From Dichomitus squalens LYAD-421 SS1 (taxonomy: Eukaryota > Basidiomycota > Agaricomycetes > Polyporales > Polyporaceae): a DNA stretch of 64,000 bases. The position numbers were made by a program, and so were the translations under genes. The DNA lies in NCBI RefSeq assembly GCF_000275845.1, contig NW_006766943.1, positions 128,002 through 192,001 of the forward strand, given 5' to 3'. The first letter of the stretch is position 1. Each line of letters opens with the position of its first letter. Positions 16,177-28,048 of this stretch are shown here, piece after piece. The notes below the pieces were generated by a model. The model was not told the DNA's origin. It saw only the letters and a list, made by a program, of their open reading frames with translations, and made no database searches.

Positions 16177-17402
16177 CTAGGGCACCTGCATCCCGGACTT
16201 GACCGCAGGACGCTCGGCCGTACGCTCGAGCCATGCCTGGTGGAAGTCATCAGCCCCACAACCACCCACTCGCTAACCATGCCAGGATACGCGACCAACC
16301 TTGACGTGGGGCCACTCGTCCATGCTCTCGATCCCAGTAAAGCCGTGCGATTCGACCCTGGGGCAAAGGGAGTCAGCTCCGAGGTCATCGCGAAAGAAAA
16401 GAACGGCCCTCGCGGTGCTGAGCGAGAGTTCGCGACGCGGAGGGAACGCGCCTTACCAGGGAAACGCGTTGATATCTGCGATGCTGTACGCCCCGCGGCC
16501 GGTGCCCGCGAGCCAGTCGCGCCCGCGGAGACGGATGTCGAGCACGCCGTACAGCCGCTTCGTCTCCGTCAAATAACCTGCAGCGTTCTGGAAGTGAGTC
16601 TGTCTGGCGGGCACGCGGCGGGAGGGGGAAGGGTGGCGCACGCTTTTTGGCATAGGGTATGTCTTCGGGCGCGGCCCTGAGGAAGTGATTGGCTGGAGGT
16701 GGTGGTCAGGCGCGGACGATGAATAGCGTCATTTGTTGCCGACGCATGGAGCCTGTGCTCACCTTGGCCCTGCATCGGTCCGATGCCACCGTGCTGCGAG
16801 GATCAAGAGGGGAGATTGGCGATTGTGAGCGGCCTGGAGGGCAGGGACAGGTGACCAGGGGACGTACTGAGAAGAATATCCACTGCAGCATCTCGCTGTA
16901 CTCGTCAGGCCGCGTGCGCGGGTCGAATGAGAACTTGAGCTGGGAATCGTAGTGCTGCTCGAGGTAGAGGAGGATCGCTGCGCTCTCGAAGACTGTGAAG
17001 TTCTCTCGGTTGCTGTCTACCAGGACCGGGATGCGGCCGTTCGGGTTCATCTTGATGAACCATGGCTCCTTTTGCGTGTCTTTCCTGATGTCTATAGGAT
17101 GCACGCTGTTGAGAAGTCAGGGCAGCGAGCAAACATAATGATCAGCCCGACACGTACTCATATTTCAGACCGTACTGTTCCTTCATTTCCTCAAGCAGGA
17201 GCGAGACCTTCCGGCCGTTAGGGGTCGGGGCCGTGTACAACTGCAGCGGCTTGCTAGACGGCGACGTTGCGGTGGAATACCGGCTGGTTTGCGCCGAGCG
17301 ACATCCCCGCGGGGATTGCGCTTGCTTCGGTGCGCTGGCAGCCTGCGCCCCGACGCGTCTCGACATGGGCGGGCGGATAACAGAATGTATCAGTGACGTC
17401 AT
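16177..17402 (-). CDS. Ure2-type glutathione S-transferase
   Basis: Conjugates or reduces electrophiles with glutathione. Seven exons: 17158-17402, 16868-17105, 16763-16793, 16642-16692, 16457-16577, 16300-16357 and 16177-16236, all phase-consistent, 267 aa. The thioredoxin-like N-domain begins near residue 50: [20 protein letters not shown], then [31 protein letters not shown] and the glutathione-contacting [15 protein letters not shown]. The helical C-domain has [60 protein letters not shown] and a final [18 protein letters not shown]. The roughly 48 residues before the GST fold are basic and Ser/Ala/Thr-rich ([29 protein letters not shown]), which resembles a mitochondrial presequence; that localisation is inference. 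A second Met 12 codons in could give a shorter leader. Confidence 0.9.
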
Positions 17403-17685
17403 CGCTTGATGAATGTCCGGCTGAGAAGAGAGAGAACTGATGGTGATAATTGGTTAATTGAGAGCTCAGACACAACAATAGCCGGAATGAATCTGACCCA
17501 AATTGAAGAGGCAGCCTTCGCGCTGCGTCGTCAAGAACCGCGAAGCAGGGAAGCAGGCAAAGTTTTTGTAGGACGCGGGAGTCGGCGTCTACTGCATCAA
17601 TCGGCCTGGAAATGATGACCAACGGTCTCTGTCAGCTTCAGCAGACTCACATCACACAAGCAGTCAAATCCTATCAAGTAAGCAC
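17403..17685. other. Promoter side of GST gene, left flank of transposon
   Basis: 283 bp between the GST start and the target-site duplication. No gene. The transposon therefore inserted close upstream of the GST promoter. Confidence 0.5.
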
Positions 17686-17693
17686 CCCGCTGG
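17686..17693. repeat. Left target-site duplication (8 bp)
   Basis: CCCGCTGG directly precedes the element end CAGTGTTG. The identical octamer is found at 28041-28048 immediately after the other end. Confidence 0.85.
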
Positions 17694-17830
17694 CAGTGTT
17701 GTTATGGGTCAAGTCAAGGTCATGACCTTTTCGTCAAGTCATGACGCGATCGGTCAAGTCAAGCGGTCATGCCCAGTGAGAACCGTCCCTTTTCCCTACG
17801 TTTTGTGGCTTTTTCTAGCTGACATACAGA
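17694..17830. repeat. Left terminal/subterminal inverted repeat region
   Basis: Starts CAGTGTTGTTATG, then GGTCATGACC at 17718-17727, AGTCATGACG at 17737-17746 and a degenerate CGGTCATGCCC near 17764. Interspersed GGTCAAGTCAAG units add direct repetition. The segment 17771-17815 is mirrored at the other end. Such arrays are likely transposase binding sites (inference). Confidence 0.75.
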
Positions 17831-18060
17831 CAGATATCGCTAGAGATCGGTAGATATCGTAGGAGATAGGCAGATATCGCTACAAAAAGCCAATTGCCAT
17901 CACTCGTCTTTTCCCCTCGTTTTGTAGCGTTTCTGGTCGAGTATGGTCTATTCAGGTCTGTCGCGACATACAGGAAAAGACACAAAAAGGTACAATTCGA
18001 TACAAAAAGCCCACCGCGCGCACGCACCCGAACACGCACCCGAACACGCAGCGGCGCGCG

Positions 18061-18150
18061 CACCTGCACCTGCACCTGCACCTGCACCTGCACCCGCACC
18101 CGCACCCGCCCCCGCACCTGCACCTGCACCCGCACCCGCGTCCGCGTCCG
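18061..18150. repeat. Hexamer minisatellite (CACCTG/CACCCG)n
   Basis: About fifteen tandem hexamers, starting as CACCTG and grading into CACCCG and GCGTCC variants, lie in the left subterminal part of the element. Plus-strand reading gives an Ala-Pro run, which is why long frames appear here; there is no other evidence for coding. Confidence 0.9.
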
Positions 18151-18439
18151 CAACTGCACTCCACCTCCTCCCCGCGCACCGCACCCTCCGAAAGCTACAT
18201 CCTACCATGTGTGTCCACCAGTATTCGCTGTCCCCGATTGCACGTATCCGGGGCAACAAGCATTTGTGCATCTGCCGTAATTCACACCTCTGTGGCGCGT
18301 TCATTTTGTATACCAGATAGTTAGCCCAGATATGCACTCGCAAACAGCCCATGACGCACCTACTCTTGCCAGTGCACAGAACTCAGACTATCCTTTCTCA
18401 GCCTCTCAGATATTCTGTGCAGGCTCGCGTTTTTAGCCC

Positions 18440-20899
18440 TTAGGATGTATGAGAGCAGGGACGTGTGCGCACCGCATTTTTGGGACCTCCCTTCTTGCAC
18501 GGCGCAGCTTCCAAATCGCCATCGAGTCGAATGTATTTCTGGGCGACATTTGAGTCAGCGTGCTCACATCTGTAGCCGTCACAAAGCACTTACGTGCCGC
18601 ATGTTTTGCGTTGGGATCCTCTCCTTGTAAAAGGTGTCGAATTGCGTCTCCGTGCCCTCGGGATTGCGAGATTTCCAGATTCTGGCACACAGATCTCTAC
18701 AAGGCAACATCAGTATATAATGATAACGAAATTGGGGCACGCACTTCGGCTTTGTCTTCGACGGTGTGGGGGGCCAGACACGCGGCAGAGCATCTGGTTT
18801 TGATGCGTTGATGGCTGTGGTGTCAACAGCGTTCGAGGGACCGGGACTGGGGCGAGGCGAGGGAGAAGGGGGGTTTGAATCACCATTGGGCGAGGGCCCC
18901 AATGTTGCCCACATATCGGCCCTGTAAGAACACGACATGAAATGTCAGATTCGTGCAAGACGATGTGAAACGCGCTTACAGCGGGTCCGGAATCTGCGAA
19001 TTGTGCCCAAGCGCAATCACGGTCAAGTTCAGTACACATTATTGACATCGATACATACAATGATCCGACTCTTGGGTGCCTGGGGACCATCGGACACATT
19101 GCCAAGCCCATGGGTTGCCACACTTTCGAATCCGGACTGCGTGTCAGTGCGAGCGGCATTGAACGTTGCGCACACGTCGGCAAGGGCGTTTGCCAAGAGG
19201 GGGGAGCTGCTCTGCTCAGCGTGGGCAGACTCCTGAGCCAGGATGTCGTTACGTGCGATGGGGTCGAGGGCACACGTGGATTCTTCTATGCCTGGGGAGT
19301 CATGAGGCGATGGTATAGCAGCGCTCTCAGGGACGACGAGTGCATTGTTATCTTGCCCGCTGGGAATCGTCGATGGCCCGGCAATCTGGATGAAAACATC
19401 GTCAGAATCCATCAATACGACCTGGCGGGGCTAACAGACGAACATCCCGTTCTGCTGACTGAGAGGGCATTCGGAAGGGTGCGTCGTCGAGGTTCATTGC
19501 AATAGAGCTATCAGGCGGAATGTCTCCGCGGGAGTGTGCACAGTGTTAGTGGGACGTCGTCTGAACCACGGCAGGGCTGTCAATTTACCTCGGGTGCGTT
19601 TTTTGCTTCCCCGGCTGGATTTTTTCTTGAGAGACTTGTTCTTGCGCCTGAGGCTGCCGGCGAACTGTGAGTAGACGTCAATAGCAATCTGCTCGACCTT
19701 CCAGTCGAAGTCGTTGAGTTGTAGTTCCGGAAAGCACTCGTACATGTGCTTATACAGCGCTGTCTTCATCTCCACAGAGGCCCCTGCCTTCCAAGTCTCC
19801 GGGAGGTCGTCGCGGCCTCGCAACCAAGCCCGCATTTCTGAACGAATTGCAGATGCACGGTCGCCGTCAATCGGGTTGCCGTGTGCGTCAATAACGAACT
19901 GCATCGTGACGTTTTCGTTCGAAATTCTGAGGCGCGTGGGGCCCTTGCGGCCCTTCGTGGCACCCAGGACTGTTACATCGTCTGCTCTCCTGTAGTCATC
20001 GAACTTTCTTTTGGTCCAGTACTTAGCCTATAATTTGCGGAGATGAATCTACGGCACGGCAAAATAAAATGGTAGAGTACATGCCGCGTGAGGATAGTCC
20101 TGCTCACGTCGAGGTACGACCAAGATCTTCCCATCAGGACCACGCTCTGGAAAGGCATCAGTAGCGTTTGGGTGGGCGGGAGGCGGTGTTGACCAAAACA
20201 ATGGTGTGCCTGGTGTGAGTATATGCGCATATGTGCATTTAGTATATACATGAGGAAATGCCACTGGACCGCTCACTGGGGTTCAAGGGATCAGGTTGGC
20301 TTGCAGACGACGTTAGCATAGTCCCTGGCAAGGGCGAGCCTTCTGATGGCCCCGAAGGCACATGGCTTCCAAGGGGCATCGTCTGCAGACATTCGACACT
20401 ATGTATTTGAATTAGCAGGGCCCGTGACATCACAATTGAGACGATATACTCTTGACTAAGACGTTGAGACAATGAGACAACATGAGAGACAGTCCGACAG
20501 TAAGAGCGATACATTGACCTACTCAATGCCATGACTACGGAGCATAGCCTTAAGGTGAGCGATTTCGGCTCGCGTCTGAGCCAATTCGGAAGAGGAGGGT
20601 GCGCGATGGCTTCCCGAGTTCTATGGATGTACAGGGCAGTGCGCGAGGCGCTGCGCACACGAGGATGACACTTACCTCTGATCCAGCGTCGGGCAAGGGG
20701 TTTCGGGTGCCAATAATTCTCCTTAAAGGAGACTCAAATGTCTCATGAATGTTTTTGATGAGTATATGCGTTATCAAGTGAGATGAGCAGCGTGACATAC
20801 CGAGCAGGGCACTTCAAATGGGGTACTGAGCTCACGGTGGGTAGCGTCTGGATGGCTGAGTGATCGTGCGATTGTGCTCCCAGTCGGGGTCAAAAACAT
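18440..20899 (-). CDS. Transposon-borne TnpA-like protein (putative)
   Basis: Multi-exon gene on the same strand as the transposase. The best-supported exon, 19589-20027, encodes AKYWTKRKFDDYRRADDVTV, GATKGRKGPTRLR, MQFVIDAHGNPIDG, DDLPETWKAG and DWKVEQIAIDVYSQF, then a Lys/Arg-rich segment (SLRRKNKSLKKKSSRGSKKR) that looks like a nuclear signal. Upstream exons give a start at 20899 (MFLTPTGSTIARSLS), a short helix ELAQTRAEIAHLKAMLRSHG and a Ser/Pro linker. Downstream exons run to the TAA at 18440-18442 and include RDLCARIWKSRNPEGTETQF. The layout KGPTR, then an IxFxxxGxPxG-like strand, then DDLPxTW and a helix recalls the plant transposase_24/TnpA partner of CACTA elements; this is pattern-level similarity only. 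Small exons at both ends are less certain than the main one. Confidence 0.6.
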
Positions 20900-21107
20900 T
20901 GTAATAACAGGCAGCAATATAGGGCAGGAATTGCCAGGGCAGGACAATGAGAGGGGGAGGGAAAGATGCTGGCAGCAGGATGCTCGATGCGCGTCGCAAA
21001 GCACGCGTCAGGTCACGTGATGGCGATGGCTCCCCGGCAAGGCAGTGAGAAGACGGCGTAGCGGCCTGTGGAGGATCGCATTCTCTCCATTACGCTCTCC
21101 TGTCAAC
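20900..21107. promoter_or_regulatory. Divergent promoter inside the transposon
   Basis: Only 208 bp separate the start of the TnpA-like gene (-) and the 265-aa gene (+), so the two probably share a bidirectional control region. It contains GGTCACGTGATGGC near 21011, an E-box-like CACGTG core related to the CACGTGAT found near both right-end repeat blocks. Confidence 0.45.
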
Positions 21108-21905
21108 ATGTCCACCGCCAAACTCCCCGAGGTCCTAATCATGGCATGGGGCTTGCAACAGAACATTCACAAACATCCCGAAGGGCACCGCAAGATGATT
21201 GTGACCAGCATACTCGCTTTGGCGACCACGGCTGCACGTCTAGCATGCCATCTGGCAGAGGACCGATGCACAGACACTATAGACACATATTGCGTTGTAC
21301 AGGCCCAAATCTCTCAAGGCACCAAGGGCGTCTTAAACGCATTGAGTAACGTTTTCGACTATTTCGAGGGCACATCAGCAGAGCTTCACTCAAACAGAGG
21401 GAATCCCACAGTAGACAGCGCCCGGCATAGCGCCCAGGGGCCGCCGTTAGGTCCTTCGATAGCTGCAGGCTTTCCTTCCGACCACCACATCGAAGGCGTC
21501 GCGGCCATGGGGCCATGTTTGGATCCCTCTCTTCTAAACCCACTTGCTGATACACTTGTTCCACCTCTCCTGATGGCACTCAAGGCACCGTTGCTTGAAT
21601 CGCTGGTGGTCCCACTGCGGATGTCGTTGGCTCAAGATCCTGCTCTTGTAGCTAGCCTTGTGGCGGCCCTGCACGGTCCTTTGGCTGACGAGCTACTGTC
21701 GCGCGAACCTCTAGTGTCTCTCTCTGGTCAGCAAACTTCTAGCAGTAATCAATTCGTTCCCCAGGTGTCCCCGGTGTCTTCGAAGGCTCTGGATCCTATC
21801 GCAACATCCTCCTCCGGATTTCGGGTGAAACATGGCTCTCGCACAGGAGAGGACAGTGCCCAGACGAAGAAGAAACGGATGCTCCCACCTTCGTGGCGTG
21901 ATTAG
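21108..21905 (+). CDS. Transposon cargo protein of unknown function (265 aa)
   Basis: Intronless ATG frame (21108-21110; the frame also extends upstream without an ATG). The N-terminal third is helical with conserved-looking Cys/His residues (AWGLQQNIHKHPEGHRKMIV, CHLAEDRCTDTIDTYC, GVLNALSNVFDYFEG). The centre is a run of hydrophobic heptad-like segments (ADTLVPPLLMALKAPLLESL, ALVASLVAALHGPLADELL). The C-terminus is Ser-rich and ends in TKKKRMLPPSWRD, a possible nuclear signal. I recognise no family. Its divergent pairing with the TnpA-like gene and lack of stops over 265 codons argue that it is a real accessory gene of the element, perhaps a DNA-binding or regulatory partner, but that is only context. 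Confidence 0.6.
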   Translation: MSTAKLPEVLIMAWGLQQNIHKHPEGHRKMIVTSILALATTAARLACHLAEDRCTDTIDTYCVVQAQISQGTKGVLNALSNVFDYFEGTSAELHSNRGNPTVDSARHSAQGPPLGPSIAAGFPSDHHIEGVAAMGPCLDPSLLNPLADTLVPPLLMALKAPLLESLVVPLRMSLAQDPALVASLVAALHGPLADELLSREPLVSLSGQQTSSSNQFVPQVSPVSSKALDPIATSSSGFRVKHGSRTGEDSAQTKKKRMLPPSWRD

Positions 21906-22130
21906 TAGAACTAGGGTGAGCAAGTTTGAGCACATACGTTTTCCAGCAGGTTTCTGACTCCATCGCAGACGGAGCCGTCGGAATCGCGCACACATACAAC
22001 GTAGAAACCTGAGTGTCACGCGCTCCCCTGGTTACCGCCGAACCTTATCTCGTTTTGTTCTGCTGCTGTGCTCGTCTTTGCCCTGTTTCGCCTTCGCTTC
22101 TTATCCTCTCTCTTGTGCTGTCCGCCCATC

Positions 22131-22580
22131 CGATGTCGCCTCAGCCCTCTGTTCAAGTTTTCGCCGTCTCGACGTCCATCCCTCGCTCTGCCTCGGCCAC
22201 GTCTTCGCTAGACCCGTTGCATATGGGCGTTCACATGTGAACGCCCATCTTCCCCCCGTCCGAGTCCGTGCTGTACCCAGCGTACCAAGCTTACCCAGGA
22301 CGCCAGAGATGCGCTCTTACGAACCCGTCACCCCTCGAAGGGATCCTGCTGCCTTCGGCTGGGGCACCCTGGTCGGCATCAGAGAAGTCGCCAGCGTGGG
22401 GTGCCCGTAACGACGACTACGAATTTGTGGCGCAGGAACGTGTTGACGAGGTCAAGGAGGAGGAAATGGTCGATGTAGAGAGGCCCGAGGACGAGAGGCA
22501 CTCAGGTAGCGCGTGGACAATGGAGGCAATCGCACACCAGACAAACATTTTGTCGAGCGCATGTGTATGTACCAACGATG
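22131..22580 (+). CDS. Possible small cargo gene, structure uncertain
   Basis: ATG at 22131 begins MSPQPSVQVFAVSTSI. A donor after the 26-bp palindrome could join to LPRTPEMRSYEPVTPRRDPA and then to an acidic exon ERVDEVKEEEMVDVERPEDE. The pieces have coding-like composition and plausible splice sites, but no family is recognised and the 3' end is not fixed. It converges on the transposase 3' end at 22612. Confidence 0.3.
22223..22248. repeat. Perfect 26-bp palindrome
   Basis: ATGGGCGTTCACA followed exactly by its reverse complement, with no spacer or mismatch. It lies inside the transposon within or beside the uncertain small + strand gene. It could be a dimeric protein-binding site or a cruciform/hairpin. 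Confidence 0.9.
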
Positions 22581-22611
22581 TAATACCGACTGTCATCATA
22601 TTGTCAAGAGT

Positions 22612-25600
22612 CTACAAAACAGCATCGAGTCCATCAACGTCTGTACTAAAATCCTGAACTCGTCCGGCAGTGTTAGCAACGTCCAATCCTGGCTTTTCAG
22701 TCACAAAAAACCTGTTTCCAAACAGCACGTCTGCCTGCGGGTGCGCAGCTTCCTGGGATGTCATGGGAAGGGGAACCATGGCGATCACAGACACAATCTC
22801 CTTGACGAAAATAACCACACGAGATGCATCCCCTAGGTACTGGCATGCTAGTAGTGTCCCCCGAGAGAACGTAAGGATCTCCTGGTCAGGTGGCGTGAAA
22901 CATGCGACCATCGCAAGGGTCTCGGTGTGACTATGCAGCCGCATCCGAAAGTAGTACTGTACCTCTGCAAAACGGCCATCTCGGAGCTGAACAAACATCT
23001 GAGAGTCCAAAAATCATGTAGCAAACAGAGCCCGTAGACGTACCTTTACCATCCGGGCACGCCGTGGCTTTCGCCCTCGAGCCTCTAAGGCAACCTCCTT
23101 CCATGCACAGCGGGCGACCTGCCCGTTGGGGAGACGCAGTCGAGCCCAGCGCACCACGGGAGCGGCCCAGTTGGGATCCTGGAGGTGGAGGCCCTGATTG
23201 CGGAGAAAGTCGCGCAAGGCACGGGCGTCGAGAGGGGGGATGACACGATGACGGGAGTCCCTCGCTGTAAGCAGGACATACCCATCCCCTAGTTCTTCGG
23301 CGTACTGTGGGAGTGGTGCATCGGTATCTGCAAGGGAAGGGATCATGGCCTTTAGAGCGTTGATCTGGCAGCGGCGCAAGGCACGCTCGGATACGTTAGC
23401 ATATGGAGTGACGTGCTGCTTGATTTCGCGCGTGATGTTGCCAATGAAATTCTCCAAGGTCCATTGCGAATGAAGCGCACCCGGACCGATACGCGTTGCC
23501 TCCGGGACGATGTGAGCCAGGGTGTGCAAACTGGGCCGAACAAAATGAAGGCGCTCTCTGCGGCGTCCGTAGTACAGCTTCTCGTACTCCTCAATATATT
23601 GAATAAAGGATGTGTGTGCAGATGGAAGATCAGTTTTCGGACAAAAACGGAACTGTAAGACGATGCGGACACCAAAAACAAGGCGGCAGAAGTGTTGATA
23701 ATAAATAGAAGGGAGGATGTGTCGGAGAAGGCCTGGGAGAAGGCCGTAAACATAGAGCAGGAATTCCCAGGCCTTGTAACCGCTCGAAATCTTCTTGGAG
23801 GGGTCCCGGGGAGGTCTATCGAAGGAGCCAGGCAGATAGCGGGTCGCGTCAGCCACGAGTTGGCCATGTTGCCTCCATAATTCTTGATCAGAGAATATGG
23901 CGAAGTCCCAGCTCGTCTTATCGTCAGGAGGTTCGCAGGTGAGTGTGCCCCGCAGGAGAGACATGATAAGATCCGTCAGATTGAGCGAAATTAGGTGCAT
24001 GAGGTCAAGAGCAAACCCACCCGGAACCCCGAGGAATCGCGCCAGGCCACTGAAGAGACTTGGCTTCGCGATGCCAGTCTCTAGCCGCAACCGAGTGTAC
24101 TCAGCCTTGTTCCTCGCGGCCCGAACACGCTCGAGGTTGTCCATGTAGCGCTGCTGCGCGGCAGAAGTGTCGGTGAGTGTTGGGACCCGAAGCGACATAT
24201 TGGGGGGGCCATCGTGGTCGCCACGCGGACGTAGGAGGGCTGGATAGTACGTGGGGTGATGGGGTTTGCGACGGCCAGGCTGTCCGCAGTATAGTCGACA
24301 GCCTTGGCCACCGTTGTGCCCAACGAGCCCATTAAGATAGGCCATTGCCGGGGAGTCGGCGGTTGCAAGGAGCAGGTAGATGAGCGACGTAAACTGCCGT
24401 TGTTGTGCGGCGTCCCAAACCTGGAGACCTTCTCGCTGTAGTGCGGCGACATGATAGAGCCCGGGGAACAGGAAGGAGTCAATATTGCGGGGCTTGTTGG
24501 GCCCCCCAATAACGGCTCCAGGGAGGACATATCGCTTCTTGTAGCGCAACGTCGGGGAGAGATCGAGCAGGACCCAAATGTAAAACCAAGTGTCGGATTG
24601 CTTTGAAGCATAGAGCTGAGCACCATCCAGGGAGAACATAAGAACCATATCATCGGGACCAATGTCCCCGGCCGCAACAGCCTGGAGATAGTCGGCCCCG
24701 TAGTACAGGTCGTCAACCATCGTGAATGTGTCCGTACTCCCTTGTGCTTGCCTGGCCTGTACTTCGGCGAGGATACGCTCCGTCTCACGACCACGGTGGC
24801 GCATGTCGAGTGCCGTGGTTGGGGACGCCCACAAGCTCTGTAGCTGCGGACCCAGGGGGAATGTAAGGAACGTACGCCGTGGAACGCGCTTCATGCGATC
24901 CAGGCTGACAGCCTCGTAGCGCGGCTCCCGACAGGTAGGAATCGGGCACTCGAGAAGGTTCTCAAAAGGGCCCGTGTACGCGACGCACGAGTTCGGGCAC
25001 ATATCCGTCCGCACGGCGTGAACCCCAGTGACCTGACCCACGAGCCTCTTGACCTGCTCATAGGTCGGGATGGCTGGGCCAGAAGCGGACGAAGCCTCGA
25101 GGTACCCAAGCATAGCCGAACGGACATCGGAGTAGTTGTCCTCCGAGGCATCGCCACGCGCGAGATACATGCGCATCCCAGCCAGCTGGCCAGCGTCGAG
25201 CTCAGGGAGGCGCATGCGAGGGTTCCGAAGCCTGTCCAGAGTGTCTCCGTCAAGGCCAGATGCATCCAACGTCGCCCCGCCAAGCGCGTCGATAAAGGAT
25301 TGCGCAATCCGGAAGTCCCTCCGGTGCGCATCGCGAGGGGCACCCTGATCCTCCGTGTACCCCACCTCCGGCTCCGATTCGGATTCCGAACGAGAAGAAC
25401 GGGACTCGGAACGCTCCTCGGGCGCCGCACGTGCCCGAGGAGAGGTAGGAGGAGAGAATTGATCAGGTGGGGAACCTGGGACAGGGGGAGATGAGAAGCC
25501 TGGTCGCTGGGGAGTGCCTGTCTGAGGGGATCCTAGCGAGTCGCCCGGACACGTGTTCTCCTCGTCTGAGTACTCACTCGAGGTCTCCGACGACTCACTC

Positions 25601-26014
25601 GAGTTTTCCTGCCCTACGTTCTGCCTATGGCGCCCTGCGGCCTGTGCGATGCTCAGCGAGATCGTCTGAAACCCGCTCAATCAAAACCATGCATCAAAAA
25701 AAAGTTTTACAACGTACCTGTGCAGTTCGTCCTCGTGTGCTCGATGCGTGAACAATTGAACGTGTAATTGGGGGGGGAGGGGAGCGTCCGATGACTGGGG
25801 TATCCGTGCCAGGAGATAAGTGTAGTATAAGCTCGGAGTCAGGCGTGGTGCGATGCCTCGCGTGTCTATTGAAAGTGCGTAAAGCGACACTACGTAGAGT
25901 GCCACCGCAATACCTCCGGCAGTCACAGAGATATTGTACGATGGTATTCGGAGGCACATCGTCGGGCAAGAGCTGTCTGATAGGCCCAGGAGGAGGAGGA
26001 GGAGGAGGCTGCAT
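22612..26014 (-). CDS. Tnp2-family transposase (1,101 aa, apparently intact)
   Basis: Transposase of the surrounding element. Three exons: 25718-26014, 23044-25665 and 22612-22998, joined in phase by introns of 52 and 45 nt. An N-terminal Cys/His module (YLCDCRRYCGG...FNRHARH) resembles a small zinc finger, followed by a long acidic/Ser linker. The Tnp2 core contains MVLMFSLDGAQLYASKQSDT, WFYIWVLLDLSPTLRYKKRY, PRNIDSFLFPGLYHVAALQR, NGLVGHNGGQGCRLYCGQPG and GGFALDLMHLISLNLTDLI. HSQWTLENFIGNITREIKQH comes near the C-terminal side. Asp in LDGAQ, Asp in DLMHL and Glu in LENFIG are candidate DDE residues (inference). The last exon (FVQLRDGRFAEVQYYF, VVIFVKEIVSVIAMVP) is the usual C-terminal beta-rich domain. 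No stop or frameshift is seen. ATG at 26012-26014 is the first that includes the Cys/His module. Confidence 0.88.
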
Positions 26015-27150
26015 TGCACTTGTCGCTGTGGAGATGAGGTGCGTTGGCTCGAACGATCCGCCCGAGTCATGTTATATGTCTGCAAGAGATATATTGTTAT
26101 CTAGGCTACCGAAGGCACACCGTTTCTGCGCCGCACCAAAGGGTCGAGTTTCGGACCATTGGCGGAAGAATGCATGGGTGCACGACTGGATGGTGACAGA
26201 GAAGCCGTTGCGATCCGCTCTAAGGAACGAGCAGAGACGACGGTGGACGCGGGCGAACCCAGATGCGGGTGAGACGGTACCTAGAGATACGCGGTTATGC
26301 ATGACAATACATTTAGGAGAGCTGCTGACCGATCCTGCCGACGTTGCACACAAGCTGGCAGTCGGAGTGGGACTGGTCCTGTGCACGTGTCGTCGTTAGC
26401 ACAACAAGGGTGAACTACTCCAGAGAACCTCCATGATGCGCTCTTGTTCGAGTCTGTGCATCGCTCGTCTGATACTTTGAGCAATTCCGGTCCCCTAGTG
26501 GGAGAGACGGACGGAAAAACAGAGCATGTTAGGAAACCATCTGACATAGCGAGCGCGCTGACAAACCTCTTGCAGGATGTCTCATGACCATACTGCCGTG
26601 TCGTGTTCCGCACGATAAGCATGTACGCAGGGAACGGTCTCTGCAAAAATGGTGACTGCAAAAGGGGATCATTCAGCAAGCGAAGATACGCACTAATGCT
26701 TCCTTGCACGACATGGATTCGTCCTAGAACATATGATGATCCGGCCGAGAGGATGTCATGCGGACGAGTACGTCCGCATACTCGTACAAGCGGCCATGCC
26801 GTTACGACCATTAGGAAACATGTCATGTGGAGCAAAGTGTGCATCAGTGAATTTTCTATGTACAAGGAGGGATGGTCTGAAACATACAGCGAGCGAGGCA
26901 GAGGGGCTCGCCCAGGCGTGCGGTAGACTCACCGGAAACCAGTCGGTGATCGATACAACCGACGGACAGGTGTATATATGTATGGCGACGATCGTGTCGA
27001 TACACTCAGAGCGAACGATATATATGTGGCAAATCGACGTCGATCAGCCATTCTATATATATGAAAGTGATCATCGATACATGAAATCATGACTAGATAG
27101 ACGCCGAGCTGTCATCGCGACAGCTCTGAAACGATGGCAAAAGACGGCAT
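26015..27150. other. Transposase upstream region inside the element
   Basis: No recognised coding unit. A 194-codon minus frame at 26281-26865 lacks an ATG start and any family motif. The part 26965-27070 is rich in TATATAT motifs and GATC/CGATAC repeats and may be promoter or subterminal repeat sequence. Confidence 0.35.
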
Positions 27151-28040
27151 TCGCTGGGAAAAGCCACATATCGTAGGGAAAAGGGTTGGTTTTCACTGGG
27201 GGTCATGACCGATGGTCATGAGTCAGCACGTGATGTGTTCGCCACACTAGGGGCTTGCCGCGCGGATCCGTTCAGCACGCTATACCGGCGCGTTGTTGGT
27301 CTGAGCTTGCAACCAAATGTTGTACCGCATTCTATCCTTGTATGAGTTGAATTTTTGATTGTCTATGCTTCACAACCAAAGGGCTGATGTATTGGAATCT
27401 CTGTGCTGTCGCCCGTGACCACTGGCACTCAGAGAGAGAAGACGCGGCCGCACACCCCAGCTTGCAGCCCCTGGCCCTCCTTCAGCCATTTGAATTTCTT
27501 TTCTAGAGGCCCCTCACTTGCCTCTTCCCTTTAGTTATACCTCTAATGTCTCTGCTCCTGTGACAGAAAATAATCCAGCTGCATTTTGGAATGCATGTAA
27601 GAGGACTCTTGAGCACAAGGTTCTACACTATGATGAGGAGACCGTGCTCGGATCACAGTATGCTATGTAACGGGCACGCAGAGAGTTCTCATACACTGAA
27701 GGACCTCTTGACGACATTTGCTTATGGACTCTCCGAATGCCTTGTATTCCGAACACAGTCTGCTTACCCCTGCAACACTTGTATGCCTCAAGTTACTCTT
27801 CGTTGTACTACATAAAATCACTCTAATTTATTCATATAACGTTCATAAACTATGCCCAGTACAATAGCAATTCAATCTATAATTTCGATAGACTCGCTAC
27901 TACATGCCCATTATATGGTAGACTCGCCTTGCCGCCGCGTTCTGCGATCACGTGCTGACCTTTGACCGTTCGGTCATGACCGATGACCCGGGCCGTCAAC
28001 GGTCATGACTCGGGGTCATGACGGGGTCATAACAACACTG
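27151..28040. repeat. Right subterminal repeats split by a 0.7 kb block, and right TIR
   Basis: 27158-27200 mirrors the left end (GTAGGGAAAAGGG core), followed by GGTCATGACC at 27201-27210 and GTCAGCACGTGATG at about 27222. A roughly 700-bp AT-richer block follows. Then 27946-28040 carries the inverted GATCACGTGCTGAC, GGTCATGACC at 27972, GGTCATGACT at 28001 and the terminal CATAACAACACTG. The inverted copies around the block suggest an insertion or rearrangement at the right end. Confidence 0.65.
27563..27830 (+). pseudogene. Decayed coding fragment within the right-end block
   Basis: One frame reads NNPAAFWNACKRTLEHKVLH and DEETVLGSQYAM, meets TAA at 27668-27670, then continues RARREFSYTEGPLDDICLW. 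Protein-like composition on both sides of the stop suggests a dead exon. The family is not recognised. Confidence 0.3.
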
Positions 28041-28048
28041 CCCGCTGG
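28041..28048. repeat. Right target-site duplication (8 bp)
   Basis: CCCGCTGG, identical to the octamer at 17686-17693. Confidence 0.85.

Follow-up and report, generated by a model that had tools for sequence, protein, structure and literature searches.

The length of a target duplication sorts transposons into superfamilies, and it reflects the spacing at which the transposase joins the two strands. The question raised by the locus described here is to which element an 8-bp duplication belongs when it encloses a Tnp2-domain transposase gene. The locus lies in a 64,000-nucleotide stretch of Dichomitus squalens LYAD-421 SS1 (hereafter the window, whose numbering we use), and the original prediction, made from that sequence, interpreted it as a single Tnp2 element of 10.35 kb bounded by CAGTGTTGTTATG ends and by an 8-bp duplication. 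The genome that we analysed comprises 40.3 Mb in 116 contigs, named C2, C3, C7 and so on.

A Tnp2-type transposon inside a smaller element

The outer hallmarks were located exactly by the original prediction: the 13-bp inverted ends CAGTGTTGTTATG (17694-17706 on the plus strand, 28028-28040 on the minus strand) are the sole two perfect matches in the window, and the octamer CCCGCTGG abuts them on both sides. Because the octamer recurs four times elsewhere in the window, it proves little by itself. Inside the outer pair lies a second pair of inverted repeats, the termini of which (CCCAGTGAGAACC...GGTTTTCACTGGG) are directly abutted on both sides by GGTCATG. A scan for terminal inverted repeats plus duplications using 8-base seeds ranked this inner pair first and the 17694/28040 pair second; a scan with 9-base seeds missed the inner repeats because their arms differ at base 9. 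Table 1 gives the coordinates.

Table 1. Features of the nested locus, in window coordinates
Feature	Position	Strand	Basis or remark
Outer left target duplication CCCGCTGG, 8 bp	17686..17693	.	Sequence; 8 bp family-wide
Outer element, left part, CAGTGTTGTTATG end; one inner duplication copy forms its final 7 bp	17694..17771	+	Short Tnp2-less copies; empty-site alignment
Inner left target duplication GGTCATG, 7 bp	17765..17771	.	Scan; empty-site alignment
Inner Tnp2-type transposon, 9,429 bp	17772..27200	- (transposase strand)	Inverted repeats; other copies; C53 empty site
Inner left terminal inverted repeat CCCAGTGAGAACC...	17772..17819	+	48 nt, 85%
Accessory gene 1, further exons	about 18579-20450	-	Boundaries provisional
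Accessory gene 1, best conserved exon	19494..20027	-	75-77% amino acid identity in C7 and C43 elements
Accessory gene 2, 265 aa	21108..21905	+	61-62% in C7, 58% in C43
Transposase exon 3, stop codon at its end	22612..22998	-	Conserved in C7
Transposase exon 2, tnp2 domain and all catalytic residues	23044..25665	-	
Transposase exon 1, start codon 26014, C-x-C...C...H...H motif	25718..26014	-	
Inner right terminal inverted repeat	27153..27200	-	48 nt, 85%
Inner right target duplication GGTCATG, 7 bp	27201..27207	.	Scan; empty-site alignment
Outer element, right part	27208..28040	+	C53 match; empty-site alignment
Outer right target duplication CCCGCTGG, 8 bp	28041..28048	.	Sequence

A genome search with the left end (window 17694-18200) gave 18 matches. 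Besides the window itself these form two groups, one starting at base 1 and ending by base 81 and the other starting at base 25 or later, mostly at bases 71-79; the break between them, at base 78/79, corresponds to window 17771/17772. The right end, with 8 matches, shows the same pattern. Four short copies of 0.9-2.5 kb have both outer ends (on C53, C12, C35 and at C61:99221). The C53 copy, to which the last 261 bp of the right outer part are 98% identical, is an uninterrupted 921 bp with no Tnp2 insertion, in other words an empty site. Deleting 17772-27207 and joining the window flanks gives 911 bp, 882 of which are identical to the C53 copy over 911 aligned bases (96.8%; 10 gap columns), and the junction matches exactly (AAGCGGTCATGACCGATGG, with a single GGTCATG). 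Since the C53 junction has one GGTCATG and the window has two, the Tnp2 element spans 17772-27200 and has a 7-bp duplication.

We are thus highly confident that the locus comprises two transposons, an inner one of Tnp2 type inside an outer element of about 0.92 kb. At the level of sequence, our comparisons demonstrate the nesting, both sets of ends and both duplications, and also the genome-wide 7-bp length for the inner type described below. The apparent mismatch of a Tnp2 transposase with 8 bp is an artefact of the nesting, because the 8 bp belong to the outer element; nested insertions can create false "mismatched hallmarks" of this kind.

That a single 10.35-kb Tnp2 element is present after all, as the intact Tnp2 gene enclosed by perfect ends and octamers would suggest, is now scarcely credible: the other copies with ends equivalent to 17694/28040 lack Tnp2, the other close Tnp2 copy, on C7, has no CAGTGTTGTTATG ends and instead has its boundaries at the positions equivalent to 17772 and 27200, and we reject the idea because the C53 empty site matches the joined flanks. 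The original prediction had itself named such differing boundaries as grounds for its refutation. It is also quite unlikely, if less so, that the two transposons have fused into a composite unit whose outer ends now mobilise the Tnp2 element. Ends and duplications are intact in both elements here, and in principle the outer ends could move the whole 10.3 kb; however, the window is the only one of the 18 left-end matches that joins an outer to an inner end at that point, and a single copy cannot serve as evidence that the two move together.

Target duplications of Tnp2-type elements

Ends of the Tnp2 type were collected by pattern searches with 16-base flanks, and each plus end was paired with the next minus end. 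This gave 51 ends in one subfamily and 37 in another (one C17 end is in both lists), and 17 and 10 pairs, respectively. Perfect duplications, 7 bp long in every case, flank 15 of the 17 pairs and 8 of the 10, 23/27 in total within this one genome, and no pair shows a repeat longer than 7 bp. The four pairs without a common duplication (on C20, C63, C17 and C54) may have recombined, decayed or been mispaired. Among deliberately mispaired controls, a 7-bp match occurred in 4 of 272 combinations for the first subfamily and 0 of 90 for the second, and those four stem from two 7-mers that are each present in two elements. The original prediction of a Tnp2 lineage with its own integration geometry holds up, but with a length of 7 bp and not 8.

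The duplications themselves are diverse (21 of the 23 are distinct 7-mers), and 21/23 carry T and A at positions 3 and 5, respectively; in the first subfamily, 45 of the 51 ends fit NNTSANN. This near-constant central T-S-A triplet, together with the palindromic nature of the window target GGTCATGACC, is what one might expect if the repeats were 3-bp CACTA-type duplications extended by chance or by target palindromes. We consider that very improbable, given that all seven positions match in the great majority of pairs, while the four outer positions change freely from one site to the next, and that the repeats stop at 7.

A transposase match lies between the paired ends in four elements (4 of the 13 match places), and all four have the 7-bp duplication: the window element, C7:1423043-1432276, C3:520431-526332 and C42:82058-104899. 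The last of these, 22.8 kb long and flanked by GTTTAGG, lies among telomere-like repeats (GGTTAGGGTTTAGG) far from the ends of its contig. The remaining 7-bp pairs are mostly 1-2.3 kb apart. Around the distant Tnp2 genes on C2 (10.3 kb scanned) and C26 (4.5 kb scanned) we saw no convincing inverted repeats.

The transposase

The transposase is uninterrupted and 1,101 aa long, as originally claimed; we find it encoded by three exons with no internal stops. A Pfam scan of exon 2 identified PF02992 (Transposase_21/tnp2; 41.8 bits against a cut-off of 28.6, E 9.4e-11) and, at E <= 0.1, nothing else, PF18759 included. The genome contains 13 matches to this protein, of which the C7 copy is 86% identical, most others 46-53%, and the distant C2 and C26 genes 31% and 28%. 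In 6 of the 11 other loci (L049-L059), the gene has a CCCAGTGARAAC-type end close by. One locus, L053 (C13:680333-682693), has a 7,002-aa open frame around the transposase match; since N accounts for 1,480 of the 5,361 bases of the locus, this frame is in all likelihood an artefact produced by runs of N.

Residues D446, D536, C555, C559, H813, H817 and E837 are each conserved in 68-70 of the 70 sequences aligned. H813-x3-H817 precedes E837, giving a D-D-E triad with H(3)H, and the conserved cysteine pair is spaced C-x3-C (70/70 and 69/70, with one gap). The predicted structure has a mean pLDDT of 85.2, and all 31 PDB matches that it retrieved at E <= 0.001 are RAG1, BbRAGL or HzTransib; a PDB search with the sequence gave no useful hit (best E 0.69). 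In exon 1, the C-x-C..C..H..H motif is present in the window copy and in 4 of the 13 homologues inspected, and with so few we do not claim it for the lineage.

Accessory genes

The original prediction of at least two other genes and of a cargo set also fits the data: two accessory genes accompany the Tnp2 lineage, with the 265-aa gene and the conserved exon of accessory gene 1 in the same order in three elements of the genome (the window, C7 and C43:206040-223660), the search for the exon being limited to fetched loci. The C43 element contains no transposase match, and its copy of the 265-aa gene aligns over the first 151 residues only. Neither the conserved exon nor the 259-aa part of the 265-aa gene that starts at 21126 has a Pfam match, and the one relative found for the 265-aa gene is its C7 copy. 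For a 249-aa splice model of an accessory gene, none of 405 candidate relatives reached E <= 0.001; one intron of that model would have GC-AG borders, and the model may therefore be incorrect.

Relation to known transposons

The element resembles EnSpm/CACTA transposons in its tnp2 domain (PF02992), its large size with accessory genes, and its D-D-E with H(3)H. It differs from them in duplication length (7 bp in the pairs counted above vs. 2-3 bp), in domain score (33-44 bits vs. 84-87 for two further Tnp2 genes in the genome), and in its ends, which are CCCAGTG (CCCAGTGAGAACC..GGTTTTCACTGGG) rather than CAC(TA)..(TA)GTG; the termini proper are CC..GG, and CAGTG begins at base 3. For fungal EnSpm families, the available part of PMC12730594 gives a 3-bp duplication.

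PlavakaA and PlavakaB, which are fungal CMCT elements, share with our element the Agaricomycete hosts and the same broad clade. In the sections of PMC12730594 available, however, PlavakaA is described with TGT..ACA ends and 2 bp and PlavakaB with CATCA..TGATG ends and 2-3 bp, both unlike the Tnp2 element here, and the accessible text of PMC8290104 defines Plavaka by PF18759, the domain absent from our exon 2 scan. The same portion of PMC12730594 gives a duplication range of 2-5 bp for the clade of relatives and C(2)C as the clade's cysteine signature. Our element would work like a CMCT transposon; measured against the CMCT definition, it agrees in fold, H(3)H and DDE and departs from it in duplication length, termini and cysteine spacing. 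For these three reasons we place it beside EnSpm, as a variant, and not among the CACTA elements.

Transib, ProtoRAG and RAG1 differ from our transposase in sequence, with about 10-12% identity in structural alignments. They make 5-bp duplications, within the 2-5 bp range. hAT and P elements differ in transposase family, by sequence, and a 7-bp length would mislead automatic classifiers, for which 7-8 bp points to hAT or P.

Whether a RAG1-fold branch with a 7-bp stagger at T-N-A sites, outside the 2-5 bp of every described relative of RAG1, occurs fungus-wide in mushroom-forming fungi is a question on which we are evenly divided. If a branch of Tnp2/RAG1 type makes 7 bp, it would break the clade rule, and it would provide a natural series of one fold with staggers of 2, 3, 5 and 7 bp; if it is real, comparison of the branch with the Plavaka, Transib and RAG1 enzymes would show which structural change sets the stagger. 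The lineage may already be catalogued, for example among the Repbase fungal EnSpm families, in which case only the description would be new. We think this possible, though on balance somewhat doubtful: 1,042 related proteins are public, several already named Tnp2 and with transposases from Ganoderma, Trametes, Grifola, Pholiota and Auriscalpium among them, and curated fungal libraries with CMC and Plavaka families and curated TSDs exist according to the part of PMC8290104 available to us, but our search of the open-access literature found no paper describing a 7-bp Tnp2/EnSpm element. The 7-bp passages in the available text of PMC12730594 and PMC4455052 concern hAT (hAT7 in the former), and the accessible portions of the Marasmius oreades literature and of a grapevine paper hold no 7-bp case.

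Proposed mechanism

The history that we favour with high confidence begins with a non-autonomous element of about 0.9 kb, with ends CAGTGTTGTTA and the 8-bp duplication CCCGCTGG, already present at this site. A 9.4-kb Tnp2-type element with ends CCCAGTGARAACC then entered the left subterminal repeat of this outer element, duplicating the 7 bp GGTCATG. The 1,101-aa protein is probably a RAG1-like DDE transposase that would bind CCCAGTGARAAC ends, excise the element and join its 3′ ends to the target, with a 7-bp offset between the two strands and a preference for a T-N-A centre; gap repair by the host would yield the duplication. Shorter elements of about 1-2.3 kb with the same ends are probably mobilised in trans, and we would guess that the two accessory proteins may aid binding or regulation. 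The intact frame and perfect duplication fit the possibility that the inner element is still mobile.

The outer element family

In the fetched stretches we found 32 outer-type ends (CAGTGTTG or CAGCGTTG), 14 of them on the plus strand. Eleven plus ends could be paired, taking the best partner where several were possible, and 3 could not; leftover minus ends have no partner in the fetched stretch. All 11 pairs have a duplication of exactly 8 bp. This is the length found in hAT, and the available part of PMC12730594 gives 8 bp for KDZ/Zisupton likewise; none of the matches from hAT-dimer (8 matches) and KDZ (7 matches) searches falls inside the 11 paired elements. An 8.3-kb relative at C26:189033-197329, with the 8-bp duplication GGATCAGG, contains no ORF of at least 120 aa within its first 3 kb, and an ORF near its other end is not recognisable by eye as a transposase.

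The outer parts of the window element are rich in GGTCATGACC-like subterminal repeats and contain 6 of the window's 12 GGTCATG. As these repeats hold the T-C-A centre favoured by Tnp2-type elements, the outer element may be a preferred landing site for them. A second such nesting is seen at L080 (C54:165307-165342), where an outer-type end (CAGCGTTATTATGACCG...) is broken 35 bp in, where a Tnp2-type end (CCCAGTGAGAACGTGC) again directly follows GGTCATG; the far end of that Tnp2-type element (172646) has no duplication in common with the near one.

Other copies have received insertions of different kinds. The copy at C61:99221 (L063, C61:99221-101745, which contains a run of N) is longer because a sister-type element, which has CAGCGTTG ends and is flanked by a separate 8-bp duplication, GGTTCGGC, is nested inside it, and L065 (C79:49446-56967) is stretched to 7.5 kb by what appears by eye to be a LINE-like insert with ORFs of 602, 376 and 974 aa. 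In the window, the outer element sits directly upstream of a gene that looks by eye to be of glutathione S-transferase type, the exons of which lie to its left (16706-17453, minus strand).
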